Positions 6,152 through 22,431 of a stretch of DNA of 64,000 nucleotides are shown here, piece after piece; within the stretch, counting starts at the first letter, position 1; each line of letters starts with the position of its first letter. The translations under genes were made by a program, and so were the position numbers. The notes under the pieces are model-generated. The model was not told the DNA's origin. It saw only the letters and a program-made list of their open reading frames with translations, and made no database searches. The stretch spans positions 1,370,501 to 1,434,500 of the forward strand of contig NZ_CP090349.1 of NCBI RefSeq assembly GCF_021398735.1. The letters are read 5' to 3'. This DNA comes from Methylobacterium oryzae. Lineage in GTDB: Bacteria > Pseudomonadota > Alphaproteobacteria > Rhizobiales > Beijerinckiaceae.

Positions 6152-6876
6152 ATGACCGGCAGGTTTCAGGACAAGGTGGTGGTGGTGACCGGCGGCACCA
6201 GCGGCATCGGCCTCGCGACCGCCCAGGCCTTCGTGGACGAGGGGGCCTCGGTGTTCATCACCGGTCGCCGCCAGGAGGCGCTCGACGCGGCGGTGAAGCG
6301 GATCGGCGGCCGGATCACGGGCGTGCGCGGCGACATGGCGAACCTCGCCGACATCGACCGCCTGTACGACGCGGTCCAGCAGAAGCACGCGCAGATCGAC
6401 GTGGTCTTCGCCAATGCCGGCGGCGGCAGCTTCGCGCCGCTCGGCGCGATCACCGAGGCGCATTATCAGAGCATCTTCGACACCAACGTGAAGGGCGTGC
6501 TCTTCACCGTGCAGAAGGCGCTGCCGCTCCTGCGGGACGGAGCCGCGATCGTCCTCACCGGATCGACCACCGGCAGTTCGGGCACGCCGGCCTTCAGCGT
6601 CTACTCGGCCACCAAGGCGGCCGTGCGCAACTTCGCCCGGAACTGGATCCTCGACCTGAAGGACCGGCGCATCCGAGTGAACACGATCAGCCCGGGCGTG
6701 ACCGAGACCGCCGGCCTCGACGAGCTCTTCGGCGGCGGCGATCAGGCGGCGGCCACCAAGGATGTCCTCGCCGGCCCGAGGAGATCGCCCAGGCGGTGCT
6801 GTTCCTCGCCTCGGACGCGGCGAGCTTCGTCAACGGCGTCGAGCTGTTCGCCGACGGCGGGCAGGTCCAGATCTGA
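6152..6876 (+). pseudogene. SDR-family oxidoreductase with frameshift near the C-terminus
   Basis: The first 206 codons encode a typical short-chain dehydrogenase: cofactor motif [12 protein letters not shown] at residues 12-23, NAG near 90, and catalytic YSATK (Tyr and Lys). After KDVLAG (about 6775) the same frame turns into Arg/Ser-rich sequence, while a different frame gives the expected tail [20 protein letters not shown] followed by [11 protein letters not shown] and a stop at 6874-6876. About five to eight codons usual before PEEIA are absent, so a small deletion not divisible by three is the simplest explanation. It could be a real mutation or an assembly error. Likely regulated by the divergent LysR gene. 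Confidence 0.75.
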
Positions 6877-7010
6877 GGGTTCGGGGCGGCCGGGACGCGA
6901 CACCCGGTCCCGGCCGCCCCCGTGAACCCTGGCAATGGCCGGCGGTTAAAGGCCCGGCCCTCCGGTCCCGCTTCCTCGCGGGCGGGCGCCGGGAAGGACA
7001 AACGGTTTCC

Positions 7011-8972
7011 ATGGGCTGGCCGCGCCGCATCCTGATCACCGCCGGTCTGGTGACCGTCGCGGCCGGCGTCGCCCTGGGCGTCGGCCGCTTCAGCTACGCG
7101 CCGATGCCCGACCGGGCGGACCTGCTCAACCCGGACCGCTACCCGATCCAGACCGCCTTCGACATCCTCGGCCGCCGCGTCTCGCGCGCGGAGGCCGACC
7201 GGCTCAGCGGCACCGAGGCCGGACGGAAGGAACTCTCGCCGAAGACCGGTGCGGTCGCGATCGATCCTGCCATGGTCGAGCGCGGCCGGCAGGCCTTCTA
7301 TCAGGAGACGTTCGGCAACGAGGTCTTCCTCACCGACGTCATGGGCATGCTCGACGGCGGCCTGACTCCCACGCAGGTCGCCCTGGCGGTGGCCAAGCTC
7401 GGTGGCCAGGGCACCACCGATCTCAAAGTTGCCATGGCCAGGGACGTGCGCGTCGGCGACCGCGTCTACCGGGCGGGCGAGCTGGTCCCGACCGGGCTCG
7501 ACGTGCCGAAGGGCGGCGCCTTCATCATCGGGATCAAGACCTTCTACGACCGCGGCCACCTGCGCATGGGGATCACCTGCGCCCTGTGCCACGCGGCGGT
7601 CGATCCCGGCACCGGCAGGGTCGTAGAGGGCGCGCCCAACACCGACCTCAATGCCGGCCTGCTGATGGCACTCGCGAAGAACTCCTCGGCCTACTTCATG
7701 CACGCCAGCGTGCCGGAGGCCGATGCCAAGCCCCCCGCTGAACCGCAGCATACCGGCTCGACCGGCACGGGGCCGGCGCTCCCGGACGCCGCTTCCGTCG
7801 AGGCGGCCACGAAGGTGCAGGTGGCGAGCTGGCCGCCGGGCAGCTTCGACTCGTCCGCCGACCGGGTCACCAACCCGACCTCGATCCCGTCAAGCTTCTC
7901 GGCGCACGGCGAGCCCTACAGCTGGAGCGGGCGCGAGGCGATCGGGCCCTTCGCGGGCCTGTCCTCGCTCAACAACAACGTCCACGCGGCTAATTCCGAC
8001 ACGACCCAGCTCGCCGCCGCCGCGCCCTGGCTGTTCGGCATGGATCCCGAGACGTATCTCGGGATCGTGCTGCGCGGCTCGGCCACGGAGGCGTTCCGCT
8101 ACAGGCCCGACGGCGGCCGGAGCCCGTCGGAGGTGCTGCGCAGCGTCGATCCGACCCCGGCCTCGCCGGGGCTGAATAGCTACGCGGTGCTGCCGACCTA
8201 TCCGGCGACCAACTACGTCACCGACAACGGCCTGTTCACGTCCGTGCCCGGGGAGCCGGTCAACCACGCCAACAACGCCATGTCGGCCTTCCAGAACCTG
8301 CTGCACCCGCCGGCCGCCGGGCAGGATCCCGACCGGGTCCGCGCGGGCCGCGCGGTGTTCGAGAAGGCCGGCTGCGGCAGCTGCCATTCCGGCCCGGCGC
8401 TCACCAACCACCGGGTCGTACCGGAGGCCGAGATCGGTACCGAGCCGACCCGGGCGCGGGCGGGCGCCAAGATGGAGGCGCGCCTGTCGGCGCCGGCGAT
8501 GTTCGCCGCCGACACGCCGTTCCCGACCCCGGCCGACCCGGTCATCGTCCCGGTGCCGCTCGCGGGCGACGCCCTCGCCCAGGTGCAGCTCGCCTGGGGG
8601 CAGGGGGGCACGGAGGGCGGCTACAAGGTGCCGAATCTCGTGGGCCTCGCCTGGACGGCGCCGTACCTGCACGATTCCGGCGTCGCGGTCGGTCCCGATG
8701 CCGAGGGCCAGCTCGGCGTCCCGGGCACGCTGTACCGGGGCGTCACCCCCGATCCCGCCAACAGCCTGCGCGCCCTGGTCGACCGGGATCTCCGGGCGAA
8801 GGTGATCGCCGCCAACGCGGCCTCGGACACGGCGCGGATCGCCCGCGTGACCGGCAAGGGGCACGCCTACTGGGTGGATGCCGGCTCGGGCGTCTCGCGC
8901 GAAGAGCAGACGGCGCTGATCGCGTACCTGCTCTCGGTCGATCGCCTGACGGAGCCGGCCGCGACGCCCTGA
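7011..8972 (+). CDS. Membrane-anchored di-heme cytochrome c, CCP/MauG superfamily
   Basis: A 653-residue protein. Residues 5-27 form an uncleaved or Sec signal anchor (ILITAGLVTVAAGVALGVG), placing the rest in the periplasm. Two c-type heme sites are present: CALCH at 190-194 and CGSCH at 455-459. The C-terminal VPNLVGLAWTAPYLHDSG matches the conserved tail of the cytochrome c peroxidase/MauG superfamily. It is about twice the length of ordinary CCPs, closer in size to RoxA-type di-heme oxygenases, so peroxidase, oxygenase or electron carrier are all open. GGGAAGGA precedes the ATG at 7011 by 11 bases. The gene stands alone. Confidence 0.8.
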   Translation: MGWPRRILITAGLVTVAAGVALGVGRFSYAPMPDRADLLNPDRYPIQTAFDILGRRVSRAEADRLSGTEAGRKELSPKTGAVAIDPAMVERGRQAFYQETFGNEVFLTDVMGMLDGGLTPTQVALAVAKLGGQGTTDLKVAMARDVRVGDRVYRAGELVPTGLDVPKGGAFIIGIKTFYDRGHLRMGITCALCHAAVDPGTGRVVEGAPNTDLNAGLLMALAKNSSAYFMHASVPEADAKPPAEPQHTGSTGTGPALPDAASVEAATKVQVASWPPGSFDSSADRVTNPTSIPSSFSAHGEPYSWSGREAIGPFAGLSSLNNNVHAANSDTTQLAAAAPWLFGMDPETYLGIVLRGSATEAFRYRPDGGRSPSEVLRSVDPTPASPGLNSYAVLPTYPATNYVTDNGLFTSVPGEPVNHANNAMSAFQNLLHPPAAGQDPDRVRAGRAVFEKAGCGSCHSGPALTNHRVVPEAEIGTEPTRARAGAKMEARLSAPAMFAADTPFPTPADPVIVPVPLAGDALAQVQLAWGQGGTEGGYKVPNLVGLAWTAPYLHDSGVAVGPDAEGQLGVPGTLYRGVTPDPANSLRALVDRDLRAKVIAANAASDTARIARVTGKGHAYWVDAGSGVSREEQTALIAYLLSVDRLTEPAATP

Positions 8973-9161: not shown

Positions 9162-9731
9162 TCAGATCACCGCCTCGATCAGGCCGCGCCGCTTGGCCTC
9201 CTCGGCCTCGAGGTACCAGTTCGACGGTGCCTTCTCGAGCACCTCGTCGAGGGTGACGTCAGAGCCCTGGATCAGGTTGGCGAAGCCCTCGTTCTGGATC
9301 TCGATCGAGCACAGGATCTCGTTGAGCGTCGCCTTCACGGAGGCGATGCAGGTGGTGAGCGGTCCCTCGACCTGGAGCTGCTTGTTCATCTTGCGCTCGT
9401 GGATCATCAACCGCGTCCCGCAGGTGAGATAGCGGTTGGGCCGGGCGAAGAAGCTCATGAAGGTCGTGCCGGCCGAGTAGATCGCGGCTTTGCCGAGGAA
9501 GACGAACCGCCGGTTCGGATCCATCGCGCTGTTGAAGCGGATGTCCTCGCCCATCATCCGGGCGACCTCCGGGTCGCCGCCGAGCGTCGTCAACTCGACG
9601 ACGACGAGGTCGCGGTCCCCCGCCGCGTCGAGCTGGCGGCGGAAGTCCTTGTACATGTCGTAGTCGACCGGTCCGGAAAGCAGGACGGCCGGGGCCCGGA
9701 AGGCGGTGGGGCCGAGGGGATTCGTGTCCAT
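9162..9731 (-). CDS. ClpP-like serine protease
   Basis: A 189-residue protein of the ClpP/crotonase fold. Candidate nucleophile Ser86 in IYSAGTTF and His111 in MIHERK are 25 residues apart, the same spacing as the catalytic Ser and His of ClpP; TLGGD at 50-53 corresponds to the substrate-strand motif STPGG. Otherwise it is divergent from housekeeping ClpP. The ATG at 9731 follows AGGAGG directly upstream. It is the last gene of the leftward amidase/formamidase run, 58 bp after amiE, with no Clp ATPase beside it. Its substrate is unknown; a role in processing or turning over the amidases is only a guess. Confidence 0.72.
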   Translation of the reverse strand: MDTNPLGPTAFRAPAVLLSGPVDYDMYKDFRRQLDAAGDRDLVVVELTTLGGDPEVARMMGEDIRFNSAMDPNRRFVFLGKAAIYSAGTTFMSFFARPNRYLTCGTRLMIHERKMNKQLQVEGPLTTCIASVKATLNEILCSIEIQNEGFANLIQGSDVTLDEVLEKAPSNWYLEAEEAKRRGLIEAVI

Positions 9732-9789
9732 GGTCCTCCTCATCGATGGAGCGGCCCAGACCCACTCGTCCCGCGGCTCTGGCCCGGCG

Positions 9790-10845
9790 TCAGCGCGCCG
9801 GGTCGGGCGCGCCCGCGCCGTTGCCCACGAACGGGATACCCTCGATCGGGCATTCCTCCGTGCCGACGCTCTGGCGGGTAATGGCCCGGACGGCGTCGCG
9901 GGTCCCGTCGGGATCCTCGATCCAGCGCCGGTAGAAGTCGTAGGGGCATTCCGACATCCCGTGCCGGTTCTCCTTCGAGTTGATCATGCCCGTGTAGCCG
10001 CGGTGCAGGAGCTTGAAGAGGTGGTTCTCCGACTGGCCGTGGGCGCGGAAGTCCCGGATCAGGAACTTCGACAGGGCCGCGTACTGGATGCCCATCTCCT
10101 CCTCGCCGCACTCGCCGAGCGTGCGGCCGTCGAAGCCGATGATCGCCGAGTGGCCGAAATACGTGTAGACGCCGTCGAAGCCCGCCGCGTTGGCCACCGC
10201 CACGTAGGTGTTGTTGGCGAAGGCCATCGCCTTCGAGATGACGACCTGCTGCTCTTTCGCCGGGTACATGTAGCCCTGGCAGCGGATGATCAGCTCAGCG
10301 CCCCGCATGGCGCAGTCGCGCCAGATCTCGGGATAGTTGCCGTCGTCGCAGATGATCAGGCTGATCTTCAGACCCTTCGGCCCGTCCGACACGTAGGTTC
10401 GGTCGCCCGGGTACCAGCCCTCGATCGGGGTCCAGGGCATGATCTTGCGGTACTTCTGGACGATCTCGCCCTGGTCGTTCATCAGGATCAGGGTGTTGTA
10501 GGGCGCCTTGTGCGGGTGCTCCTCGTGGCGCTCGCCGGTGAGCGAGAACACGCCCCAGACCTTGGCCTCCCGGCAGGCGGCGGCGAAGACCTCGGTCTCG
10601 GCGCCCGGGACCGTCGAGGCGGTCTCGTACATCTCCGCGGCGTCGTACATGATGCCGTGGGTCGAGTATTCGGGGAAGATCACGAGGTCGAGGCCAGGCA
10701 GGCCGGTCTTCATGCCGACGATCATCTTGCCGATCGCCTTGGCGTTCTCCAGCACCTCGGCGCGGGTGTGCAGGCGCGGCATCTTGTAGTTCACGACGGC
10801 GACGCCGACGCTGTCCTGGCTGGACGAGATGTCTCCGTGCATCAT
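9790..10845 (-). CDS. amiE: Aliphatic amidase
   Basis: A 351-residue nitrilase-superfamily enzyme hydrolysing short aliphatic amides (acetamide, propionamide, acrylamide) to the acid and ammonia in the cytoplasm. It is nearly collinear with Pseudomonas AmiE: HGDISSS at the N-terminus, Glu59 in FPEYS, Lys134 in KYRKIMPW and Cys166 in [10 protein letters not shown] form the catalytic triad. The ATG at 10845 has AGGAGG about 8 bases upstream. Lying 46 bp after fmdB and downstream of fmdA and the urt-type transporter, it probably supplies ammonia from imported amides. Identification is very firm; substrate range is inferred from the family. Confidence 0.95.
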
Positions 10846-11328: not shown

Positions 11329-12558
11329 TCATAGATCCGGCGAGAGCGGCATCTGGATCGAGCCGTCGAGGAACTTGGTCGGTCCGTCGGCGCCCGGGTT
11401 GATGTCGAACTCGAAGATCTTGGTCGGTATCCAGAGCGTCGCGCAGGCGTTCGGGATGTCGACGACGCCCGAGATGTGGCCCTGGACCGGCGCGGTGCCG
11501 AGGATCGAGTAGGCCTGCGCGCCCGAGTAACCGAACTTCTTCAGATACTCGATCGCGTTCAGGCAGGCCTGCCGGTAGGCGATGTGCACGTCGAGGTAGT
11601 GCTGGCCGCCGCTCTCGTCGACCGAGATGCCCTCGAAGATCAGGTGATCGTCGTATTTCGGCGTGATCGGCGACGGCTTGAAGATCGGGTTCTTGATCCC
11701 GTACTTGGCCATGCCGTCCTTGATCAGCTCGACCTTGAGATGCACCCAACCGGCCATCTCGATGGCGCCGCAGAAGGTGATCTCGCCGTCGCCCTGGCTG
11801 AAGTGGAGATCGCCCATCGAGAGGCCGGCGCCGGGGACGTAGACCGGGAAGTAGATCTTCGAGCCGCGCGACAGGTCCTTGATGTCGCAATTGCCGCCGT
11901 GCTCGCGGGGCGGGACGGTGCGGGCGCCGGTGGCGGCGGCCGCGTCCTTCGCGTCGCCCTTCAGGCGGCCCATGTGGGCGGTCGGCCCGAAGGGCAGGGT
12001 GGCGAGCGCCGGCACGCGCTCCGGGTCGGTGTCGTAGAGCGCCTTCTCGCGGGTGTTCCAGGTCTCCAGCATCTTCGGGTCGGGCAGGCAGCCGATCAGG
12101 CCGGGATGGATCAGGCCGGGGAAGCGCACGCCCGGGACGTGGCGCGACTTTGTGAACATGCCCTCGAAGTCCCAGATCGACTTCTGGGCCTGCGGGAAGT
12201 GCTCGGTGAGAAAGCCGCCGCCGTTCTTCTTCGAGAAGAAGCCGTTGAAGCCCCACTGGCTCTCGGGCTTGGCGCCGATGTCGAGGAGGTCGACCACCAG
12301 CAGGTCGCCGGGCTCGGCGCCCTCGACGCCGATGGGGCCTGAGAGGAAGTGCACGATCGACAGGTCGATGTCGCGCACGTCGTCGGCGGAATCGTTGTTC
12401 TTGATGAAGCCGCCGGTCCAGTCGTAGGTCTCGACGATGAAGTCCGCGCCCGGCTTCACGTAGGCGACCATGGGGATGTCGGGGTGCCAGCGGTTGTGCA
12501 CCATGTCGTTGTCATAGGCCGACTGCGTCAGATCGACCTTGATCAGCGTCTCGGGCAT
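11329..12558 (-). CDS. fmdA: Formamidase (acetamidase/formamidase family)
   Basis: A 409-residue cytoplasmic enzyme of the FmdA_AmdA family, hydrolysing formamide (and possibly acetamide) to ammonia and the acid. Length and features match the methylotroph formamidase: N-terminal NRWHPDIP, the GNCDIKDLSRGSKIYFPV segment near residues 220-237 and LSMGDLHFSQGDGE near 244-257, which hold the metal-binding Asp/His/Glu residues. It is unrelated in fold to AmiE, so the cluster has two independent amidases. Start at 12558 is preceded by GGAG. Formic acid released here can feed methylotrophic C1 metabolism, which is inference. Confidence 0.93.
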   Translation of the reverse strand: MPETLIKVDLTQSAYDNDMVHNRWHPDIPMVAYVKPGADFIVETYDWTGGFIKNNDSADDVRDIDLSIVHFLSGPIGVEGAEPGDLLVVDLLDIGAKPESQWGFNGFFSKKNGGGFLTEHFPQAQKSIWDFEGMFTKSRHVPGVRFPGLIHPGLIGCLPDPKMLETWNTREKALYDTDPERVPALATLPFGPTAHMGRLKGDAKDAAAATGARTVPPREHGGNCDIKDLSRGSKIYFPVYVPGAGLSMGDLHFSQGDGEITFCGAIEMAGWVHLKVELIKDGMAKYGIKNPIFKPSPITPKYDDHLIFEGISVDESGGQHYLDVHIAYRQACLNAIEYLKKFGYSGAQAYSILGTAPVQGHISGVVDIPNACATLWIPTKIFEFDINPGADGPTKFLDGSIQMPLSPDL

Positions 12559-12719: not shown

Positions 12720-13484
12720 CTAGACCGAGAGGAACCGGGCGACGGCGGCCTCGTCGATCCCGTCGCGCGGCGCCTCGTGGACGATGGCGCCGTTCTCCAG
12801 CACGATCACCCGGTCGGCGACGTCGAGGGCGAAGCTCAGGACCTGCTCGGACACGACGATGGAGAGGCCGCGCGCGTCGCGGATCTTTTTGAGAGTCCGA
12901 CCCATCTCGCGGATGATCGAGGGCTGGATGCCCTCGGTGGGCTCGTCGAGGAGCAGGACCTTCGGTCGGCTCGCCAGCGCCCGGGCGATGGCGAGCTGCT
13001 GCTGCTGCCCGCCCGAGAGGTTGCCGCCCCGCCGGCCCTTCATCTCCAGCAGGACCGGAAACATGTCGTAGAGGTCCTGGGGCACCTTGCGGGTGCCGGT
13101 GACCGTCAGGCCGGTCTCGATGTTCTCCTGGACCGTCATGGTCGAGAAGATCATCCGGCCCTGCGGCACGTAGGCGAGGCCCTTGGCGACCCGGGCGTGG
13201 CTCTTCAGCCCGGCGACGTCCGCGCCCTCGACCTGGATCGACCCGGCCTTGACGGGCACGAGGCCCATCAGGGTCTTCATGAGCGTGGTCTTGCCCATGC
13301 CGTTGCGGCCCATCACGGCGACGATCTCGCCCGGTGCCACCGAGAAGGTCAGCCCGTGCAGGACCTCGCTCTGGCCGTAGGCGGCGTGCAGGTCCTCGAC
13401 GGCGAGGGCCGGCGTCGCGGACGGGGCCGCGGTCGGCGGGGGCGCCTGGACGCCGGGGATGTGCGCAGTCTGGAGCGACGCCAT
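12720..13484 (-). CDS. urtE: Urea/amide ABC transporter ATPase UrtE-type
   Basis: A 254-residue ATP-binding subunit of a branched-chain-amino-acid-type importer. Walker A is GRNGMGKTT, the signature is LSGGQQQQLAIARAL and Walker B is LLLDEPTEGIQPS; the last two are typical of UrtE rather than LivF. About 25 extra N-terminal residues precede the domain. The ATG at 13484 lies two bases after the urtD stop; a TTG at 13490 is an overlapping alternative. Together with UrtD it should power import through UrtB/UrtC. Because fmdA follows, the cargo may be formamide or other short amides as well as urea. Confidence 0.9.
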   Translation of the reverse strand: MASLQTAHIPGVQAPPPTAAPSATPALAVEDLHAAYGQSEVLHGLTFSVAPGEIVAVMGRNGMGKTTLMKTLMGLVPVKAGSIQVEGADVAGLKSHARVAKGLAYVPQGRMIFSTMTVQENIETGLTVTGTRKVPQDLYDMFPVLLEMKGRRGGNLSGGQQQQLAIARALASRPKVLLLDEPTEGIQPSIIREMGRTLKKIRDARGLSIVVSEQVLSFALDVADRVIVLENGAIVHEAPRDGIDEAAVARFLSV

Positions 13485-13486
13485 CG

Positions 13487-14284
13487 TCAATGTCCCAGAT
13501 ACACTTCGATGACCTTCGGGTCGTTCTTGACCCGCTCCATCGAACCTTCGGAGAGCACCTTACCCTGGTGCAGGACGGTCACCCGGTGGGCGATGTCCTC
13601 GACGAACTTCATGTCGTGCTCGATCACCAGCACCGAGCGGCCCTTGATGATCTGGTTGAGCAGCTCGGCGGTCTTGATCCGCTCGCCGACGCTCATCCCG
13701 GCCACCGGCTCGTCGAGCATCAGCAATTCCGGGTCCTGGATCAGCAGCATCCCGATCTCCAGCCACTGCTTCTGGCCGTGGCTCAGGAACTCGGCCCGCT
13801 CCCTGAGCTGGTCCTTCAGGAAGATCGTCTCGGCGATGGCGTGGATGCGGTCGCGGACCTCAGCGTCCCGCTTGAACGTGAGGGCGCCGAAGACCGAGCG
13901 GCCGCGGGGGAACGAGATCTCCAGGTTCTCGAACACCGTCAGGTCGTCGTAGATCGACGGCGTCTGGAACTTGCGGCCGACGCCGGCCTGCACGATCGCG
14001 CTCTCGGAGAGCTTGGTCAGTTCCTGGCCCTTGTACTTGATCGAGCCGGCGCTGGCCCGGGTGCGCCCGCAGATCAGGTCGAGGACCGTGGTCTTGCCGG
14101 CGCCGTTCGGGCCGATGATCACCCGGATCTCGTCCGGATCGACGTAGAACGACACGTCGTTCACCGCCTTGAACCCGTCGAACGAGACCGTGAGCGCCTC
14201 GACGGCGAGGAGGTAGTCGGGCGGGGCCGCCTCGGCGCCGACCACGGGGGAGGAGAGGATCGCGGCATTCATGGAGGGACTCAC
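13487..14284 (-). CDS. urtD: Urea/amide ABC transporter ATPase UrtD-type
   Basis: A 265-residue ATP-binding subunit. Walker A is GPNGAGKTT, Walker B is LLMLDEPVAG, and the signature region LSHGQKQWLEIGM is diagnostic of UrtD. The GTG at 14284 overlaps the urtC stop as GTGA, indicating translational coupling; an ATG at 14272 is the alternative. It partners UrtE on the cytoplasmic face of the UrtBC permease. Confidence 0.92.
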   Translation of the reverse strand: MSPSMNAAILSSPVVGAEAAPPDYLLAVEALTVSFDGFKAVNDVSFYVDPDEIRVIIGPNGAGKTTVLDLICGRTRASAGSIKYKGQELTKLSESAIVQAGVGRKFQTPSIYDDLTVFENLEISFPRGRSVFGALTFKRDAEVRDRIHAIAETIFLKDQLRERAEFLSHGQKQWLEIGMLLIQDPELLMLDEPVAGMSVGERIKTAELLNQIIKGRSVLVIEHDMKFVEDIAHRVTVLHQGKVLSEGSMERVKNDPKVIEVYLGH

Positions 14285-15453
14285 TCAGCCGGAGTGCCGT
14301 GGGGCGGGACGATAGCGGGCGGCGGGGCGCGCAACGCCTTCACCCGGCGGGTGAGGCGGGGCTCGATGTGCTCGCGCCAGATCCCGGCGAGACCGTTCGG
14401 GAAGGCCAGCACCACCGCGATGAACAGGGCGCCGAGGCCGAACAGCCAGAGATCCGGAAAACTCTCGGAGAAGCTGGTCTTGGCCCAGTTGACGAGCAGC
14501 GTGCCCCAGACCGCGCCGAACAGCGACAGGCGCCCGCCGACCGCGGCGTAGATCACCATCTCGATCGACGGGACGATGCCCACGAAGGAGGGCGACATGA
14601 ACCCGACCTGCAGGGTGAACATCGCGCCGCCGATCGCCGCCAGTCCGGCGGCGAAGCAGAAGGCGAAGACCTTGAAGCCCGCCACCGAGTAGCCGGAGAA
14701 CCGGACCCGGTCCTCCTTGTCGCGCATGGCGACGAGGATGCGGCCGAGCTTCGACTTTTTCACGTACTGCGCCGCCAGGATGCAGGCGATCAGCAGGCCG
14801 CCGTTGACGAAGTACAGGATGAACTTCGCCGAGTCGGAGCGGATGTCCCAGCCGTGGAGGGTGCGCAGGTCGGTGATGCCGTTGATGCCGCCGGTGTAGC
14901 CCTGCTGGCCGACGATCAGGATGGTCAGGATCGCCGCGATCGCCTGGGTGATGATGGCGAAGTAGGTGCCCCCGACCCGGCGCTTGAACATCGCGAAGGA
15001 GATCAGCATTGCGAACAGGACCGGGACGGCCACCGCCAGGATCAGTGTCAGCGGCAGGCTCTTGAACGGCTGCCAGAACCAGGGGAGCGCGGTGATCTGG
15101 TTCCAGTCCATGAAGTCCGGGATCCCGGGCGTGGACTGGATCTTTGTATTCTCGATGCTCGAAGCTTCCAGCTTCAAGTACATCGCCATGCAGTAGCCGC
15201 CGAGGCCGAAGAACACCCCCTGGCCGAGGGAGAGGATGCCCGCGTAGCCCCAGCAGATCACCAGACCGAGGGCGACGAACGCGTAGGTGAGGTACTTGCC
15301 GACGAGGTTGAGGCGGAAGCTGTCGAGCACTAGCGGCAGGACGACCAGGATCACGCCGGCCAGGAGGCAGAGGCTCAGCCACTCCACCGGCTTCATGAAC
15401 GGGTTGTCGTTGACGGTGACGGATTTGGTGAGGGTCTGGACCGGGTTCGTCAT
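14281..15453 (-). CDS. urtC: Urea/amide ABC transporter permease UrtC-type
   Basis: A 390-residue inner-membrane permease of the LivM/UrtC type with eight to ten hydrophobic segments. The GYAGILSLGQGVFFGLGGY stretch near residue 70 and the GQQGYTGGINGITDL loop near 190 are typical of UrtC. A long insert between the first and second halves is usual for this family. It begins 12 bp after urtB and its stop overlaps the urtD start, so the five genes behave as one operon. Confidence 0.92.
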   Translation of the reverse strand: MTNPVQTLTKSVTVNDNPFMKPVEWLSLCLLAGVILVVLPLVLDSFRLNLVGKYLTYAFVALGLVICWGYAGILSLGQGVFFGLGGYCMAMYLKLEASSIENTKIQSTPGIPDFMDWNQITALPWFWQPFKSLPLTLILAVAVPVLFAMLISFAMFKRRVGGTYFAIITQAIAAILTILIVGQQGYTGGINGITDLRTLHGWDIRSDSAKFILYFVNGGLLIACILAAQYVKKSKLGRILVAMRDKEDRVRFSGYSVAGFKVFAFCFAAGLAAIGGAMFTLQVGFMSPSFVGIVPSIEMVIYAAVGGRLSLFGAVWGTLLVNWAKTSFSESFPDLWLFGLGALFIAVVLAFPNGLAGIWREHIEPRLTRRVKALRAPPPAIVPPHGTPAE

Positions 15454-15465
15454 GGTCGAAAATCC

Positions 15466-16392
15466 TCAGCGCCGGACCTTGAGGGTGAAGAGGCCCTGCG
15501 GCCTCAGCATCAGGATGCCGACCACCGCGAGCAGGGTGATGACCTTGGCCATCGAGCCGGAGAGGAAGAACTCCAGGGTCGACTGCGTCTGGGAGATCGA
15601 GAAGGCCGACGCGATGGTGCCGAGCAGGCTCGCGGCGCCGCCGAACACCACGATCAGAAAGGTGTCGACGATGTAGAGCTGGCCGGAGGTCGGCCCGGTC
15701 GAGCCGATCATCGTGAAGGCGGAGCCGGCGATGCCGGCGATGCCGCAGCCGAGGCCGAACGTGTAGCGGTCGACCTTCTCGGTATCGATGCCCACCGCCC
15801 CCGCCATGGCGCGGTTCGACATGACGGCGCGGACCTGCTGGCCGAAGCGCGAGCGGAAGATCAGCAGCGCGACGCTGACGGTGATCAGGATGGTGACGGC
15901 CATGACGAACAGGCCGTTGATCGGGATCTCGATCGTGTCGGTGACCTGCACCGAGCCGATCAGCCAGGACGGCAGCTCGACGCCGACCTCGCGGGCGCCG
16001 AAGATCGACCGGTAGGCCTGCTGGAGGATCAGCGAGAGGCCCCAGGTGGCGAGCAGCGTGTCGAGCGGGCGCTTGTAGAGGAACCGGATCAGGCCCCATT
16101 CCACCAGCATGCCCAGAGCCCCGGAGGCGAGGAATGCCAGCCCCATCGCGATGAAGAAATAGATCGGGAAGAGCGCCGGCAGGTAGGTCTGGAAGAAGGT
16201 CGAGCAGAGATAGGTGACGTAGGCGCCGAGGATCATGAACTCCCCGTGGGCCATGTTGATCACGCCCATCTGGCCGAAGATGATCGCGAGCCCCAGCGCC
16301 ATCAGCAGGTAGACGGAGAACAGGATCAGGCCTGCGAAGCCCTGCATGGCGAAGATCGCGCCGAGGTCGCCGAGGGAGTAGTCGCCGAGCAT
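15466..16392 (-). CDS. urtB: Urea/amide ABC transporter permease UrtB-type
   Basis: A 308-residue inner-membrane permease of the LivH/UrtB type. The motif GVINMAHGEFMILGAY near residue 45 and the C-terminal EFFLSGSMAKVITLL and RPQGLF are family hallmarks. Unlike many UrtB proteins it lacks the long periplasmic N-terminal extension. The ATG at 16392 is chosen; a TTG six codons upstream has no better ribosome-binding site. It is separated from urtA by 196 bp that hold a palindromic repeat. Confidence 0.9.
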   Translation of the reverse strand: MLGDYSLGDLGAIFAMQGFAGLILFSVYLLMALGLAIIFGQMGVINMAHGEFMILGAYVTYLCSTFFQTYLPALFPIYFFIAMGLAFLASGALGMLVEWGLIRFLYKRPLDTLLATWGLSLILQQAYRSIFGAREVGVELPSWLIGSVQVTDTIEIPINGLFVMAVTILITVSVALLIFRSRFGQQVRAVMSNRAMAGAVGIDTEKVDRYTFGLGCGIAGIAGSAFTMIGSTGPTSGQLYIVDTFLIVVFGGAASLLGTIASAFSISQTQSTLEFFLSGSMAKVITLLAVVGILMLRPQGLFTLKVRR

Positions 16393-16458
16393 GGTTTCGG
16401 TCTTCCGCAAAAGGAGTGCGTCTTCTGCCGACTCGTCACGGCCTCCGGGCGAACCGGG

Positions 16459-16588: not shown

Positions 16589-17857
16589 CTACTGGTAGCC
16601 CTTCGGGAAGGGATCGGGCTTGATCAGCTCGGGGCTGGTGTAGACGATCTCGAACTGGCCGTCGGGCTTCGCCCGGCCGACCCGGGTCTTCGACCAGAGA
16701 TGGTGGTTCTCGTCGATCTTCACGTAGCCTTCCGGCGCGCCCTTGAACTCGATCCCGGGCGAGGCCGCCACCACCTTGTCGACGTCGAACGAGCCGGCCT
16801 TCTCGCAGGCCATCTTCCACAGGAACGGGCCGAGATAGGCCGCCTGCGTCACGTCGCCGATGACCGTCTTCTCGCCCCACATCTTCTTGAACGCGGCCAC
16901 GAATGCCTTGTTGTTCTCGTTCTGGATCGACTCGAAGTACTTCATGCAGGCGTAGGCCCCGGCGATGTTCTCGCCGCCGATGCCGTCGATCTCGTCCTCG
17001 GTCACCGAGATCGTCATCAGCACCTGCTTCGACAGGTCGATGCCCGCCGCCTTGAGCTGCTTGTAGAACGCCACGTTCGAGCCGCCGACCACGTCGGCGA
17101 AGATCACCTTGGGCTTGGTGAGCTTGATCTTGTTGATGACCGAGTTGAACTGCGTGTGGCCGAGGGGGAAGTACTCCTCGCCGACGACCTTGCCCTTGAG
17201 CACGTTCTCCACGTGCTTGCGGGCGATCTTGTTGGAGGTGCGCGGCCAGATGTAGTCGGAGCCGATGAAGTAGAAGCTGTCGCCGCCCTTCTCCTTGTGG
17301 ACCCAGTCCAGGCCGGCGAGGATCTGCTGCGTGGCCTCCTGGCCGGTGTAGAAGACGTTCTTCGACTGCTCCAGGCCCTCGTAGAAGGTCGGGTAGTACA
17401 GCAGGCCGTTGTACTGCTCGAAGACCGGCAGCACCGCCTTGCGCGAGGCCGAGGTCCAGCAGCCCATCACGGCGGCGCAGTGGTCGTTGACGAGGAGCTT
17501 CTTGGCCTTCTCGGCGAAGGTCGGCCAGTCGGAGGCGCCGTCCTCCTGGATGATCTTGATCTTGCGGCCGAGCACGCCGCCGGCGTCGTTGATCTGCTGG
17601 ATCGCGAGCTTCTCCGCTTCCTGCGCGCCCGTCTCCGAGATCGCCATCGTGCCGGTGACCGAGTGCAGAATGCCGACCGTCACCTCGCTGTCGGTCACCG
17701 CGAGGCCCGTGGTGTTGACCGCCGCGGTCGGCGGCGCCGCCCAGGCGGTGCGCGGCAACAGCGCCAGCGCCGGGGCGCCGGCCAATCCCATGAGCAGCCT
17801 GCGCCGCAGCGGGGAGCGCAAGCCGTGATCGGCGCCGGTCTCGGTGTCGTCTGCCAT
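16589..17857 (-). CDS. urtA: Urea/short-chain amide ABC transporter substrate-binding protein
   Basis: A 422-residue periplasmic binding protein of the UrtA/FmdD/AmiC group. The N-terminus has LRRRLLMGL followed by a hydrophobic stretch ending PRTAWAAP, which reads as a twin-arginine signal peptide. The mature protein has the family features TVGILHSVTGTMAISE and YYPTFYEGLEQSKNVFYTG. The ATG at 17857 is the start that gives this signal; the longer upstream frame is low-complexity. First gene of the leftward urt-fmd-ami run; it faces the transporter-kinase gene across a 283-bp gap with NtrC-like and sigma54-like sites. Urea or amide as ligand cannot be told apart from sequence. Confidence 0.92.
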   Translation of the reverse strand: MADDTETGADHGLRSPLRRRLLMGLAGAPALALLPRTAWAAPPTAAVNTTGLAVTDSEVTVGILHSVTGTMAISETGAQEAEKLAIQQINDAGGVLGRKIKIIQEDGASDWPTFAEKAKKLLVNDHCAAVMGCWTSASRKAVLPVFEQYNGLLYYPTFYEGLEQSKNVFYTGQEATQQILAGLDWVHKEKGGDSFYFIGSDYIWPRTSNKIARKHVENVLKGKVVGEEYFPLGHTQFNSVINKIKLTKPKVIFADVVGGSNVAFYKQLKAAGIDLSKQVLMTISVTEDEIDGIGGENIAGAYACMKYFESIQNENNKAFVAAFKKMWGEKTVIGDVTQAAYLGPFLWKMACEKAGSFDVDKVVAASPGIEFKGAPEGYVKIDENHHLWSKTRVGRAKPDGQFEIVYTSPELIKPDPFPKGYQ

Positions 17858-17936
17858 GTGCCTGACCCTGTTCGCGTCCGGGCCTTGAGAGGCGGCCCGG
17901 ATCGACGAGCGCAGGCTAGGTCCTGGGTTGCAGTGC

Positions 17937-17963
17937 GGCCTATACGCGATTTTGCGTATGGCC
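17937..17963. promoter_or_regulatory. Dyad near the urtA promoter
   Basis: GGCC-T-ATACGC, a 6-base loop GATTTT, then GCGTAT-GGCC: ten paired bases interrupted by one unpaired T. It overlaps the predicted urtA transcription start and could be an operator, for instance for the LuxR-type regulator encoded divergently, or a hairpin at the 5' end of the mRNA. Confidence 0.4.
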
Positions 17964-17970
17964 GTGGTCT

Positions 17971-17986
17971 TGCATGCGCCGCACCA
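17971..17986 (-). promoter_or_regulatory. Possible sigma54 promoter of urtA
   Basis: Read on the minus strand the site is TGGTGCGGCGCATGCA: GG and GC are separated by exactly 10 bases as required for -24/-12 elements, and -12 reads ATGC instead of TTGC. Weak on its own, but an NtrC-like dyad lies about 60 bp further upstream. Confidence 0.4.
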
Positions 17987-18037
17987 TCGCGGCGGAATAC
18001 TTTGAGGTCGGGGTGGCTGAGAGCGCGAATAGTGGGA

Positions 18038-18052
18038 GCACCGCTCCGGTGC
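18038..18052. promoter_or_regulatory. NtrC-like binding dyad
   Basis: GCACC-N5-GGTGC matches the core of the NtrC consensus (TGCACC-N5-GGTGCA) on both arms. It sits between urtA and the transporter-kinase gene, about 85 bp upstream of the predicted urtA start of transcription, suggesting nitrogen-limitation control of the cluster. Confidence 0.5.
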
Positions 18053-18140
18053 CCGGTCTTTCGCGCGCGCGCGCGTCGCGCGGCCGCCCGTGCGCGACGC
18101 TGCCCGGGCACGACGGGCTGATCGTCCCGGCCGGGGCCCG

Positions 18141-21100
18141 ATGAGCGGTCCGCAGCGCATCATCCCCATCCGCCGGGACTACAACCGCTTCGTCGCCGAC
18201 GAGACGCTGGAGGATTACGCCCTCCGCTTCACCGCCAAGAAGGCGCGGCGCTGGTCGAGCCTCGAGGTGGCGCAGACGGCCCTCGGCTCGATCTCGTTCC
18301 TCGCGCTGGAGGCGATCGGCGGGACGCTGGCGCTCACAGCGGGATTTCCCAACACGGTGGCGGCCGTGCTGGTCGTCGGCCTGATCATCTTCGCCACGGC
18401 GGCGCCGATCACGGTCTACGCCGCCCGCTACGGCGTCGACATGGACCTGCTCACCCGGGGCGCCGGCTTCGGCTATCTAGGCTCGACCGTCACCTCGCTG
18501 ATCTACGCGAGCTTCACCTTCCTGTTCTTCGCCATCGAGGCGGCGATCATGGCTCTGGCTCTGCAGCTCTGCTTCGGGCTGCCGCTCGGCGTCGGCTACC
18601 TGCTCTGCGCCGGAGCGGTGATTCCCCTGGTCGTCTACGGGATCCGGCTGATCAGCCGGTTCCAGATCTGGACGCAGCCGATCTGGATCGCCTTGAGCCT
18701 GCTGCCGCTGATCTTCGTGGCGGCGCAGGGCACGGGGCCGCTGCGGGCGCTCGCCGGCTACCCGGGCCTCGACGGCGGCGGGGGCGGCTTCGACCTCGCG
18801 CGCTTCGGTCTCGCCACCGGCGTCCTGCTGGCGCTGCTCGCCCAGGTCGGCGAGCAGGTCGACTTCCTGCGCTTCGTGCCGGAGCCGCGGGGCCCGCGCG
18901 ACCGCCGCTGGTGGCTCGCCGTCCTCTCGGGCGGCGCTGGCTGGATCCTGCCCGGGATGCTGAAGATCCTGCTCGGCGCCGCGCTGGCGGTCCTTGCGCT
19001 GGGGCACGGCGTCCCGGCCGAGCACGCCGCCGAGCCGACCCGCATGTACGCGGTGGCCTTCGGCTACCTGACGGGGGAGGGGAGCCGGGCGGCGCTGCTG
19101 CTCACCGGGCTGTTCGTCCTCGTGTCGCAGCTCAAGATCAACCTGACCAACGCCTATGCCGGCTCGATCGCGTGGTCGAACTTCTTCTCGCGCCTGACCC
19201 ACAGCCATCCGGGACGGGTGGTCTGGCTCGTGTTCAACGTCGCCATCGCGGTGCTCCTGATGGAGCTCGGCATCGACAAGACCATCGAGAGCACCCTGCC
19301 ATTCTACGCCTCCGTGGTCTCGGCCTGGGTCGGCGCGCTCGCCGCCGACCTCGCGGTCAACAAGCCGCTCGGCCTCTCGCCCCCGGGCATCGAGTTCAAG
19401 CGCGCCCACCTTTACGCGGTGAATCCCGTGGGGACCGGCGCCATGGCGCTATCCCTCGCGGCCGGGGGCGCGGCCTATGTCGGCTGGCTCGGCGCGACCC
19501 TGCAGCCCTTCGCGCCATTGCTGACCCTGGCGATCGCGTTCTGCGCCGCGCCGGCGATCGCCTGGGCGACGGCGGGGCGCTGGTACATGGCGCGGGTCCC
19601 GAAGCGGGATTGGGGCGCGGCCGAGGTGGTCTGCCGGGTCTGCGAATTGCCCTTCGAGGGCGAGGACATGGCCCATTGCCCGGCCTACGACGCCCCGATC
19701 TGCTCCCTCTGCTGCTCGCTCGACGCCCGCTGCGGCGACCTGTGCAAGCCCCACGGGCGCCTGGAGGTGCAGGCGCAGGCCGCCGTCGCGCGGATCCTGC
19801 CGGGCCGCACCGCTGCCTGGATCGGCGCGCCACTGGGCCGCTACCTCGCGGTGATGCTGACGCTCTGCGCGGTGATCGGCCTGATCCTCGGCATCGTGCA
19901 CGCGGGCGCGACGATCGCCCACCCGGAGAATCGCGAGTTCCTGCGCACGGCGCTGACCAGCGTGTTCTTCACCCTGGTGGTGATCCTCGGCGTCGTGGCG
20001 TGGCTGTTCGTGCTCGCCCAGGAGAGCCGGCGCGTCGCCCAGGCCGAGACGATGCGCCAGACCGCGCTCTACCAGGCCGAGATCGCCGCCCATAAGATCA
20101 CCGACGCCAAGCTGCAGGAGGCCAAGGAGCGGGCCGAGGCCGCCAATCAGGCCAAGAGCCGCTACGTGGTCGGGATCAGCCACGAGCTGCGAACGCCGCT
20201 CTCCACGGTGCTCGGCTACGCCCAGCTCCTCGAATCCGACCCCGCGATCCCGGCCCACCGGGTCAACGGCCTGCGGGTGATCCGGCGCAGCGCCCAGCAC
20301 CTGTCGGGCCTGATCGACGGCCTCCTCGACATCTCGCGCATGGAGGCCGGGCGCCTCCAGATCCACCGCGACGAGGTCCGGCTGACCGACTTCCTCGACC
20401 AGCTGGTCGACATGGTCCGCCTCCAGGCGCGGGAGGCCGGGCTCGAGTTCCGCTTCGCGCGGCCCGAGATCCTGCCCGCGGTGGTCGCCACCGACGAGAA
20501 GCGCCTGCGGCAGGTGCTGCTCAATCTCCTGTCGAACGCCATCAAGTTCACGGAAGCCGGCACCGTCTCGCTGGACCTCAGCTACCGGAGCCAGATCGCG
20601 GTGTTCACTATCCGCGATACCGGGCCGGGCATCCCGGAGGCGGACCTCGCGCGGATCTTCGAGCCGTTCGAGCGCGGCTCGACCCCGGCCGCCCGCAGCA
20701 CGCCGGGGACCGGGCTCGGGCTCACCATCGCCAACCTGCTGGCGCAGCTCCTGGGCGGCGAGATCACCGTGACCGCCGCCCCCGGCGGCGGCACGCAGGC
20801 GCGGCTGCGCCTGATGCTGGCCTCCGTGGCCCAGCCCGCGCCGATCGTCGCGCCCGCGCCGGCCGCACCCCCGGAGCGGGCCTACGCGGGCGCGCGCCGC
20901 ACCGTCCTGGTCGCCGACGACGACAGCGCTCACCGCGCGCTGATGCGGGCGATCCTGGAGCCGCAGGGCATCTCCGTGCGGGAGGCCGGCTCCGGATCCG
21001 AGTGCCTCGCGACGGTCGCACAAGGCGGCGTCGACCTCGTCCTCCTCGACATCGCGATGCCCGGGATGAGCGGCTGGGCGGCGGCGGCGGCCCTGCGGCA

Positions 21101-21521
21101 GGCCGGGCATACCGGCCCGATCGCCATGATGTCCGCCAACGTCCACGAGATCAGCCCGACCCGGGGCGACGACGCCCCGCACGACGCGATCTTCGCCAAG
21201 CCCTTCGACCTGCGCGACGTGATGGAGCGGATCGGCAAGCTCCTGCACCTCGAATGGACCGAGGGCGCCGCGCCGGGGCGGTCCGGGGCGGCCGCGGCCG
21301 CGGCCGCGGCGGACGTCCCGGGGCCGGGGCCCGAGCATGTCGGCGAGCTCCTGCGCCTCGGCCGGATCGGGCATATCCGCGCCATCGAGGCCAAGCTGAC
21401 CCAGATGGAGCAGGACCCGACCGTGCCGCCCGCTTTCGTCACCCGGATGCGCGGGCTCGTCGAGGGATACGACCTTCGCCGCTACCTCGCGGTCCTGCAG
21501 GAACTCGCCCGCCATGACTGA
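18141..21521 (+). CDS. NCS1-type transporter fused to hybrid histidine kinase and receiver
   Basis: A 1126-residue inner-membrane sensor. Residues about 30-480 resemble an NCS1 purine/cytosine-permease-type transporter with roughly twelve membrane segments, starting DYALRFTAKKARRWSSLEVA. Residues 498-535 hold eight cysteines (CRVC, HC, ICSLCC, RC, LC) like a zinc-binding knuckle. Two further membrane segments (about 570-590 and 605-628) and a coiled coil lead to a HisKA domain with His681 in GISHELRTPLS, a HATPase domain (NAIKF, DTGPGIP, GTGLGLTIA) and a receiver with Asp970 in LLDIAMPGMSG. Domain order parallels CbrA, where an SLC5 transporter is fused to a kinase. It is divergent from urtA and overlaps the next regulator gene by 8 bp. 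It probably senses a nitrogenous solute such as urea, an amide or a purine. Confidence 0.88.
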   Translation: MSGPQRIIPIRRDYNRFVADETLEDYALRFTAKKARRWSSLEVAQTALGSISFLALEAIGGTLALTAGFPNTVAAVLVVGLIIFATAAPITVYAARYGVDMDLLTRGAGFGYLGSTVTSLIYASFTFLFFAIEAAIMALALQLCFGLPLGVGYLLCAGAVIPLVVYGIRLISRFQIWTQPIWIALSLLPLIFVAAQGTGPLRALAGYPGLDGGGGGFDLARFGLATGVLLALLAQVGEQVDFLRFVPEPRGPRDRRWWLAVLSGGAGWILPGMLKILLGAALAVLALGHGVPAEHAAEPTRMYAVAFGYLTGEGSRAALLLTGLFVLVSQLKINLTNAYAGSIAWSNFFSRLTHSHPGRVVWLVFNVAIAVLLMELGIDKTIESTLPFYASVVSAWVGALAADLAVNKPLGLSPPGIEFKRAHLYAVNPVGTGAMALSLAAGGAAYVGWLGATLQPFAPLLTLAIAFCAAPAIAWATAGRWYMARVPKRDWGAAEVVCRVCELPFEGEDMAHCPAYDAPICSLCCSLDARCGDLCKPHGRLEVQAQAAVARILPGRTAAWIGAPLGRYLAVMLTLCAVIGLILGIVHAGATIAHPENREFLRTALTSVFFTLVVILGVVAWLFVLAQESRRVAQAETMRQTALYQAEIAAHKITDAKLQEAKERAEAANQAKSRYVVGISHELRTPLSTVLGYAQLLESDPAIPAHRVNGLRVIRRSAQHLSGLIDGLLDISRMEAGRLQIHRDEVRLTDFLDQLVDMVRLQAREAGLEFRFARPEILPAVVATDEKRLRQVLLNLLSNAIKFTEAGTVSLDLSYRSQIAVFTIRDTGPGIPEADLARIFEPFERGSTPAARSTPGTGLGLTIANLLAQLLGGEITVTAAPGGGTQARLRLMLASVAQPAPIVAPAPAAPPERAYAGARRTVLVADDDSAHRALMRAILEPQGISVREAGSGSECLATVAQGGVDLVLLDIAMPGMSGWAAAAALRQAGHTGPIAMMSANVHEISPTRGDDAPHDAIFAKPFDLRDVMERIGKLLHLEWTEGAAPGRSGAAAAAAAADVPGPGPEHVGELLRLGRIGHIRAIEAKLTQMEQDPTVPPAFVTRMRGLVEGYDLRRYLAVLQELARHD

Positions 21522-22431
21522 GGCGCCGAAGGTCCAGCCGCACCGGGACATCGTCCTGGTGATCGACGATTCGCCCGACACGCTGAGCTTCCTCACCGAG
21601 GCGATCGAGCGGTCCGGCGCCACCGTGCTGGTCGCCGTCGGCGGCGACCTCGCCCTGACCCTGGTGGACGAGATCACCCCCGACGTGATCCTCCTCGACG
21701 CGGTGATGCCGGGCCTCGACGGGTTCGAGACCTGCCGGCGGCTCAAGGCCAAGCCGCAGCTCGCCGGCGTGCCGGTGATCTTCATGACCGGGCTGAGCGA
21801 GACCGAGCACATCGTGAAGGGGCTCTCCGCCGGCGGGATCGACTACGTCACGAAGCCCATCGCCCCCGACGAGATCCTGGCCCGGATCCGCGTGCATCTC
21901 GCGAGCGCCCGCGCCGCGCAGAGCGCCCGGACCGCCCTCGACACGGCCGGGCGGACCCTGTTCGCGGTCGCCGAGGATGGCACGATCCTGTGGTCGACCC
22001 CGCAGGCCGGACGCCTGCTCGCCGGGCTCGGCGCGGTACCCTCCGGCACCCCCGCGCTGCCCGCCGGCGCCCGCGAGTGGCTGCGCGGTTGCCTCGCCGG
22101 CGCCGCCCAGCCCCTCGCGCTGACCGATCGCGACGGCGTCGCCTACGCCCTGACCTTCATCGGCCGCACCCCAGACGAGATCCTGCTCCGCCTGTCGCGC
22201 GACGCGCTGTCGGCGGGGGTCGAGCGGCTGCGGGTGCGCCTGCCGGTCACCGGGCGCGAGGCGGAGGTCCTCCTCTGGCTGTCCCGGGGCAAGTCGAGCC
22301 GCGACATCGGCGAGATCCTCGGGCTGAGCCACCGGACCGTGACGAAGCACCTCGAGAGCATCTACGCGAAGCTCGGCGTGGAGAACCGCACGGCCGCCTC
22401 GATCATCGCGGCGCGGCACCTGCAGGATTGA
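21514..22431 (+). CDS. Response regulator with LuxR-type DNA-binding domain
   Basis: A 305-residue protein: receiver domain (residues 12-130) with phospho-acceptor Asp62 in VILLDAVMPGLDG and Lys in TKP, a PAS-like linker (about 140-230) beginning GRTLFAVAEDG, and a C-terminal LuxR/GerE helix-turn-helix (240-300) with GLSHRTVTKHLESIYAKLG. The ATG at 21514 overlaps the kinase stop by 8 bp, so the two are co-translated and almost certainly partners. Target promoters are likely in the adjacent urt-fmd-ami cluster. Confidence 0.92.
   Translation: MTEAPKVQPHRDIVLVIDDSPDTLSFLTEAIERSGATVLVAVGGDLALTLVDEITPDVILLDAVMPGLDGFETCRRLKAKPQLAGVPVIFMTGLSETEHIVKGLSAGGIDYVTKPIAPDEILARIRVHLASARAAQSARTALDTAGRTLFAVAEDGTILWSTPQAGRLLAGLGAVPSGTPALPAGAREWLRGCLAGAAQPLALTDRDGVAYALTFIGRTPDEILLRLSRDALSAGVERLRVRLPVTGREAEVLLWLSRGKSSRDIGEILGLSHRTVTKHLESIYAKLGVENRTAASIIAARHLQD

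Follow-up and report, generated by a model that had tools for sequence, protein, structure and literature searches.

Histidine kinases fused to a carrier domain are little studied, and the coupling of a transport fold to kinase activity remains an open question. The SLC5/STAC kinases CbrA, CrbS, and RpuS are described as joining a carrier domain to a histidine kinase in the accessible parts of the reports on them (PMC13022988, PMC5715377, PMC9100948), and in Ks-Amt5, as far as its report could be consulted, a transporter fold of the Amt type serves as the sensor of a histidine kinase and ammonium is sensed (PMC5764959). Here, we analyzed a 64,000-nucleotide stretch of Methylobacterium oryzae (contig NZ_CP090349.1, positions 1,370,501 to 1,434,500; hereafter the window), in which a gene encoding an NCS1-fold carrier fused to a hybrid histidine kinase is followed by a LuxR/NarL-type regulator gene. 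The kinase and regulator probably form a two-component system devoted to urea and short-chain amides, with the carrier as the receptor.

Architecture of the kinase-regulator pair

The gene pair contains the following features, with positions counted in the window:

18141..21521, + strand: carrier-fused hybrid histidine kinase gene, 1126 amino acids (open reading frame [ORF], Pfam)
18141..19595, + strand: NCS1-fold carrier domain, residues 1-485 (profile comparison, predicted fold)
19632..19745, + strand: eight-cysteine module, residues 498-535, beta-rich in the model
19830..20015, + strand: membrane hairpin, residues 564-625 (hydrophobicity, model)
20154..20351, + strand: HisKA (DHp), residues 672-737, with His681 (Pfam)
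20490..20819, + strand: HATPase_c, residues 784-893 (Pfam)
20904..21233, + strand: kinase receiver (Response_reg), residues 922-1031, with Asp970 (Pfam)
21330..21512, + strand: C-terminal helical domain, residues 1064-1124, without an invariant His (alignment, model)
21514..22431, + strand: LuxR/NarL-type response regulator, 305 amino acids, with Asp62 (Pfam: Response_reg 14-126, GerE 246-298)

The initial annotation of this DNA had described a single 1126-residue fusion ORF overlapping a LuxR-type gene, and the ORFs confirm it, the end of the kinase frame and the start of the regulator frame sharing 8 bp. Pfam and the sequence likewise confirm the HisKA, HATPase, and receiver domains, the only Pfam labels in the protein, together with the phospho-acceptors His681 and Asp970, both kept in 57 of 57 aligned kinases. 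The protein thus has every element of a hybrid histidine kinase, and the regulator, with a receiver, a GerE domain, and Asp62 as phospho-acceptor, belongs to the LuxR/NarL-FixJ class. A histidine phosphotransfer domain with a conserved His, optional in hybrid kinases, was not found, the C-terminal helical domain having no invariant His in the alignment and model. The N-terminal part is present as a single copy in its own genome (6.65 Mb).

The N-terminal part had been read as an NCS1-type carrier, with a profile search proposed as the check. Profile-profile comparison by hhalign with 18 stand-alone relatives, several of them labelled PF02133, gave a probability of 100 and an E value of 5e-42 over 440 columns, and the predicted fold is nearest those of CodB and Mhp1, which bears out the reading. 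Single-sequence Pfam and NCBIfam scans of residues 1-500 stayed blank for any carrier family up to an E value of 10, and we therefore use the wording NCS1-type or NCS1-fold. The carrier was also tested for SLC5 membership and does not belong to that family. Alignment revealed many carrier positions that are invariant within helices.

Two stand-alone carriers were observed in passing. One clear PF02133 permease (299.8 bits; G000:C2:258774-260084, L001) is encoded on a different contig of the M. oryzae genome, with no tie to the kinase locus. At L130:5949-10328, a stand-alone member of this carrier family (PF02133) adjoins a gene with two CN_hydrolase domains and an UrtA-like binding protein, and could be an amide transporter related to the sensor.

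A conserved cysteine module and membrane hairpin

Between the carrier and the kinase, the eight-cysteine element and the two added membrane segments that had been noted earlier are both present in the sequence. The cysteines lie at residues 498, 501, 513, 521, 524, 525, 531, and 535 (C-x2-C-x11-C-x7-C-x2-CC-x5-C-x3-C in the window protein), and a pattern tolerating minor spacing shifts is kept in 88 of 88 full-length homologues. This set omits L060 (in-frame stop) and L076 (686-codon frame) as well as L130, L131, L133, and L134, which were omitted by length; alignment A5 omits L145 and others by choice. The hydrophobic segments that follow the module span residues 569-586 and 607-621. In the full-length model (predicted local distance difference test score 84.8, predicted template modeling score 0.63, alignment of 57 sequences), the region leading from carrier to kinase begins with short strands, corresponding to the Cys module, and continues with two short helices and a pair of membrane helices. 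The second helix of this pair is predicted as one continuous helix (595-698) running into the DHp. No STAC four-helix bundle was seen between carrier and kinase in this model.

An invariant, beta-rich element of eight cysteines would also suit a carrier that is a mere membrane anchor, with nitrogen, metal, or redox state sensed elsewhere, for instance by the Cys module itself. We consider this improbable, given that the invariant positions within the carrier helices exceed the needs of an anchor and that the linked genes, described below, are those for urea and amides.

Recurrent linkage to urea and amide genes

The kinase pair is divergent from an amide/urea uptake cluster, as the initial annotation had it, and all five urt genes, the formamidase, and the amidase score above their NCBIfam cut-offs:

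16589..17857, - strand: urtA, urea-type ATP-binding cassette (ABC) substrate-binding protein (NCBIfam; start codon chosen by hand)
15466..16410, - strand: urtB (NCBIfam)
14281..15453, - strand: urtC (NCBIfam)
13487..14284, - strand: urtD (NCBIfam)
12720..13490, - strand: urtE (NCBIfam)
11329..12558, - strand: fmdA, formamidase (NF045496, 763.5 bits, cut-off 500)
9790..10845, - strand: amiE, aliphatic amidase (NF009802, 714.2 bits, cut-off 427)

Two further frames lie at the amidase end of the cluster. A small protein encoded next to the amidase gene (9162-9743, - strand) weakly matches a family of Clp protease subunits (25.1 bits versus a cut-off of 228), and a 736-amino-acid frame upstream of this end (6762-8972, + strand) has weak cytochrome c matches.

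A homologue search with residues 1-650 matched 8000 of 8000 scored candidates, so that the family has at least 8000 members; the closest among the matches listed, from Methylobacterium sp. 13MFTsu3.1M2, is 99% identical. A homologue in a laboratory strain of Methylorubrum extorquens shows 78% identity across 93% of residues 1-650. Recurrence of the same fusion in so large a family is far beyond chance. Some source records name the protein "histidine kinase/purine-cytosine permease-like protein," and annotation pipelines therefore already recognize the composite. Matches occurred in 20 of 289 Alphaproteobacteria, the M. oryzae genome counted, and in 55 of 398 Pseudomonadota, including three (G462, G503, and G560) with just weak or short matches.

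Gene neighborhoods were compared in two samples, namely, 80 named loci, which are the best 80 of 570 confirmed candidates and are enriched in Methylobacterium and Bradyrhizobium, and a less biased set of 56 Pseudomonadota copies. The 56-copy count omits the M. oryzae genome, second pieces of split matches, and weak matches; its coordinates were typed by hand, and it used 67 urtA rows above the cut-off (the rest omitted) and 19 of 54 ureC rows. Within this set, urtA lies at most 2.5 kb from the kinase gene in 41 of 56 copies, divergently in all 41, and ureC lies within 8 kb in 9 further copies. The remaining six comprise two with a divergent urtA at 2.8 and 6.6 kb, two fmdA-linked variants without a receiver (L133 and L134), one locus truncated by a contig end (G384), and G491. 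The linkage to urt, amide, and urease genes, for which a neighbor survey had been proposed, thus recurs. Among the named loci, the LuxR-type gene comes next after the kinase gene in all 78 of sufficient length, and the 68 loci with at least 8.4 kb upstream hold five urt genes in 67 cases, fmdA in 60, and an amidase gene in 36. Urease-linked copies have ureC, ureG, or ureF close by. Among 51 kinase genomes, 50 had an UrtA match (E value of 1e-40) and 48 a ureC match, counts that cover kinase-bearing genomes only.

Two types of urt neighbors were distinguished. UrtA is close to that of the window at 74 of 83 gaps between urtA and the kinase gene (window counted), while the other 9 border an UrtA-like protein at 36-43% identity; at L047, an example of this second type, UrtB is longer, with weak HEAT matches below the Pfam cut-off. 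On the kinase tree, where some long branches are uncertainly placed, the starred branches imply at least six gains or losses of the first neighbor type.

No purine or hydantoin genes were seen among the annotated neighbors. The earlier proposal of urea, amide, or purine as the signal is thereby narrowed, as the neighboring genes point to urea and short-chain amides, the common denominator of urt, formamidase (fmdA), amidase (amiE), and urease genes.

Three loci show other layouts. At L133:5499-8156, the carrier kinase lacks a receiver, and the genes that follow encode a separate receiver-HisKA-HATPase protein and an OmpR-type regulator, with fmdA nearby. The frame positions at L134:5663-8347 give the same layout; this arrangement looks like the same relay divided over more genes. 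At L057:8653-13363, in one Bradyrhizobium, the kinase gene is divergent from an amidase gene alone, with neither urt genes nor the palindrome described next.

A predicted operator upstream of urtA

The divergent gap of the window contains one candidate regulatory site:

17943..17958, no strand assigned: predicted operator TACGCGATTTTGCGTA, in the divergent gap 17858-18140 (comparative)

This is the sole exact match to TACGY-N6-RCGTA (the Y/R form) in the window, and a one-mismatch scan found one additional match, the number chance predicts. For NarL-type regulators, the known pattern is an inverted repeat of two 7-bp halves 2 bp apart (7-2-7). The Y/R form was found in 62 of the 83 gaps, or in 74 if one position is relaxed, while shuffled gaps gave a mean of 0.095 gaps with a site and a maximum of 2 (the shuffles preserved single-base composition only). 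As the palindrome was spotted in the window and then broadened on relatives, this first set does not constitute an independent test. A second set of 46 upstream regions had the Y/R site in 33 and the relaxed form in 37, or in 31 and 35 of 44, respectively, once two repeats of first-set loci were removed (L022 and L128, the same loci as L143 and L141); other genomes of the second set may coincide with genomes of the first. As controls for the second set, the first 600 bp of the kinase gene had the site in 0 of 46 cases, and shuffling, again with single-base composition alone preserved, gave 0.06. In the named gap loci, all nine Y/R sites that do not fall in the gap lie 73-160 bp upstream of fmdA. 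The shared site suggests that the kinase pair turns on the neighboring urt and fmd genes.

Several observations weigh against this interpretation. The urease-linked loci L136, L137, L139, and L145 have no Y/R site despite their homologous kinases and regulators (L145 has three relaxed matches, one of them 0.3 kb before the kinase gene), nor does the amidase-linked L057. Nine of the 83 gaps have not even a relaxed site, including two from Methylobacterium with one mismatch. In the M. oryzae genome, the pattern occurs 4 times versus 9 for the reversed control, and the site is therefore meaningful only in its position.

The loci lacking the palindrome would fit a site that serves a different regulator of the urt and fmd genes, the kinase pair acting elsewhere. 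This seems unlikely to us: the site is absent before second urtA genes located away from the kinase in kinase-bearing genomes (0 of 20 hand-picked genes, with one relaxed match), and gaps flanked by the second urt type have it in 8 of 9 cases, next to 54 of 74 for the first. The recurrent neighborhood and the conserved predicted operator together support the earlier view of a dedicated signaling unit tied to urea and amide scavenging.

The palindrome was also observed in other settings. It stands before an urtA-like gene placed elsewhere in locus L089, and about 170 bp before an urtA-like gene downstream of the regulator at L140:12074 (G513, whose second kinase copy is urease-linked). In three Pseudomonadaceae gaps (L083:8280/8302, L087:9793/9815, and L098:9795/9817), it is doubled, 22 bp apart, or about two helical turns.

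The carrier pocket and sodium site

Pocket residues were placed by alignment with Escherichia coli CodB and compared in 57 kinases and five stand-alone relatives. The side-chain ligands of the Na2 sodium site in CodB, Thr278 and Thr279 (PMC9379551, available portion), align to Lys332 and Ile333, which are identical in 57 of 57 kinases; the five relatives have Arg at the first position and Ile or Val at the second. The Na2 side-chain ligands of the Na+-coupled CodB and Mhp1 are thus absent from the carrier domain in all 57, which disfavors Na+-coupled transport of their type. The same portion of the CodB report states that Thr278Ala barely affects transport and that Thr279Ala lowers it (PMC9379551), so that the change to Ile333 weighs more than Lys332; as a point to the contrary, the Thr278Ala mutant still transports, and Lys332 alone cannot settle Na+ dependence. 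Any transport by this carrier is probably not Na+ coupled.

CodB Asn280 and Tyr285 correspond to Asn334 and Tyr339 (57 of 57), Thr126 takes the place of Gln105 (57 of 57), Phe (49 kinases) or Leu (8) that of Trp108, and aliphatic residues occupy the Phe204 region, where a gap in transmembrane helix 6 leaves a one-residue uncertainty. A pocket without the aromatic sandwich suits a small non-aromatic ligand, and we infer a Na+-independent carrier with such a pocket. A classical NCS1 ligand (hydantoin, allantoin, or a nucleobase), of which urea and amides would be mere downstream products, would agree with the fold nearest CodB and Mhp1 and with the purine-cytosine permease-like source names. These substitutions and the neighboring urt, formamidase, amidase, or urease genes make it very improbable.

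Four polar intramembrane residues, Glu133 in transmembrane helix 3 (TM3), Lys332, Asn334, and Asn337, are invariant in 57 of 57 kinases; the five stand-alone relatives all keep Glu133 and have a basic residue at position 332. Together with the complete predicted carrier fold, these residues might point to a carrier that truly transports urea or amides, with protons or alone, and to a kinase that senses the transport cycle and not just binding. In the accessible parts of the respective reports, the CbrA carrier is said to import histidine (PMC13022988) and the NCS1 carrier MetT to be probably proton coupled (PMC13390362). An ABC urea/amide transporter, however, adjoins the kinase gene in most loci and makes a second uptake path unnecessary, and we regard this alternative as possible but somewhat unlikely.

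Proposed mechanism

According to the receptor model that we favor, urea, formamide, or a similar small amide would bind the central pocket of the carrier and shift its conformation. The Cys module and membrane hairpin would relay this shift to the single long helix predicted to become the DHp, altering autophosphorylation at His681. Phosphate would then pass to Asp62 of the regulator, either directly or through Asp970, and the regulator would bind TACGY-N6-RCGTA, the site recognized by comparison, upstream of urtA and also of fmdA where the latter has its own promoter, presumably activating the uptake and hydrolysis genes.

A more speculative extension, which we think rather improbable, is a Na+-independent and possibly proton-gated urea/amide transceptor (invariant Lys in the Na+ site, conserved TM3 Glu), in which the eight-Cys module would be a second, metal or redox input and the kinase would fire only when substrate and metal state agree; it would represent a further fold class of transporter-kinase.

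Comparison with known systems

The family is a candidate for a sensor dedicated to urea and short-chain amides, which are important in soil and plant-surface nitrogen cycling. Its size and conservation, solved carrier relatives (CodB and Mhp1), predicted ligand class and operator, and homologues in laboratory methylobacteria make receptor, relay, and output each testable.

A literature search, in which few subscription papers were reachable, found no NCS1-fused kinase, eight-Cys linker, urea/amide linkage, or operator. A gene pair beside urt genes appears in two genome papers, PMC2907700 (Table 4, Dechloromonas) and PMC13296017, with no remark on the carrier part in the portions available, and we infer from size and neighbors that these pairs belong to the same family. 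For the fmd cluster of Methylophilus methylotrophus, the regulator named in the accessible description is a putative positive one, and a two-component pair is not mentioned.

The carrier shares its fold with CodB, Mhp1, and MetT, and the Asn and Tyr counterparts with CodB, from which it differs by Lys and Ile in place of the Na2 threonines, by the altered Gln105 and Trp108, and by the kinase fusion. According to the available part of its report, MetT indicates that NCS1 carriers can accept guanidine-like compounds and work independently of Na+ (PMC13390362); Na2 ligands are therefore not universal in NCS1. By analogy, CrbS/CrbR is the nearest worked-out parallel to the kinase-regulator pair, as CrbS is likewise described, in the text available, as a hybrid kinase; its partner belongs to the LuxR family, and activation requires an inverted repeat (PMC5715377). 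Compared with the SLC5/STAC kinases, the carrier here is NCS1-like, the eight-Cys module and membrane hairpin replace the STAC domain, and the neighbors are urea/amide genes. Carrier-fused kinases are already known as a kind (documented, in the parts consulted, in PMC13022988, PMC5715377, and PMC5764959), and we agree with the initial annotation that SLC5-fused kinases are established; for the NCS1 version with its eight-Cys linker, the link to urea/amide genes, and the predicted operator, the literature searched gave no earlier description.
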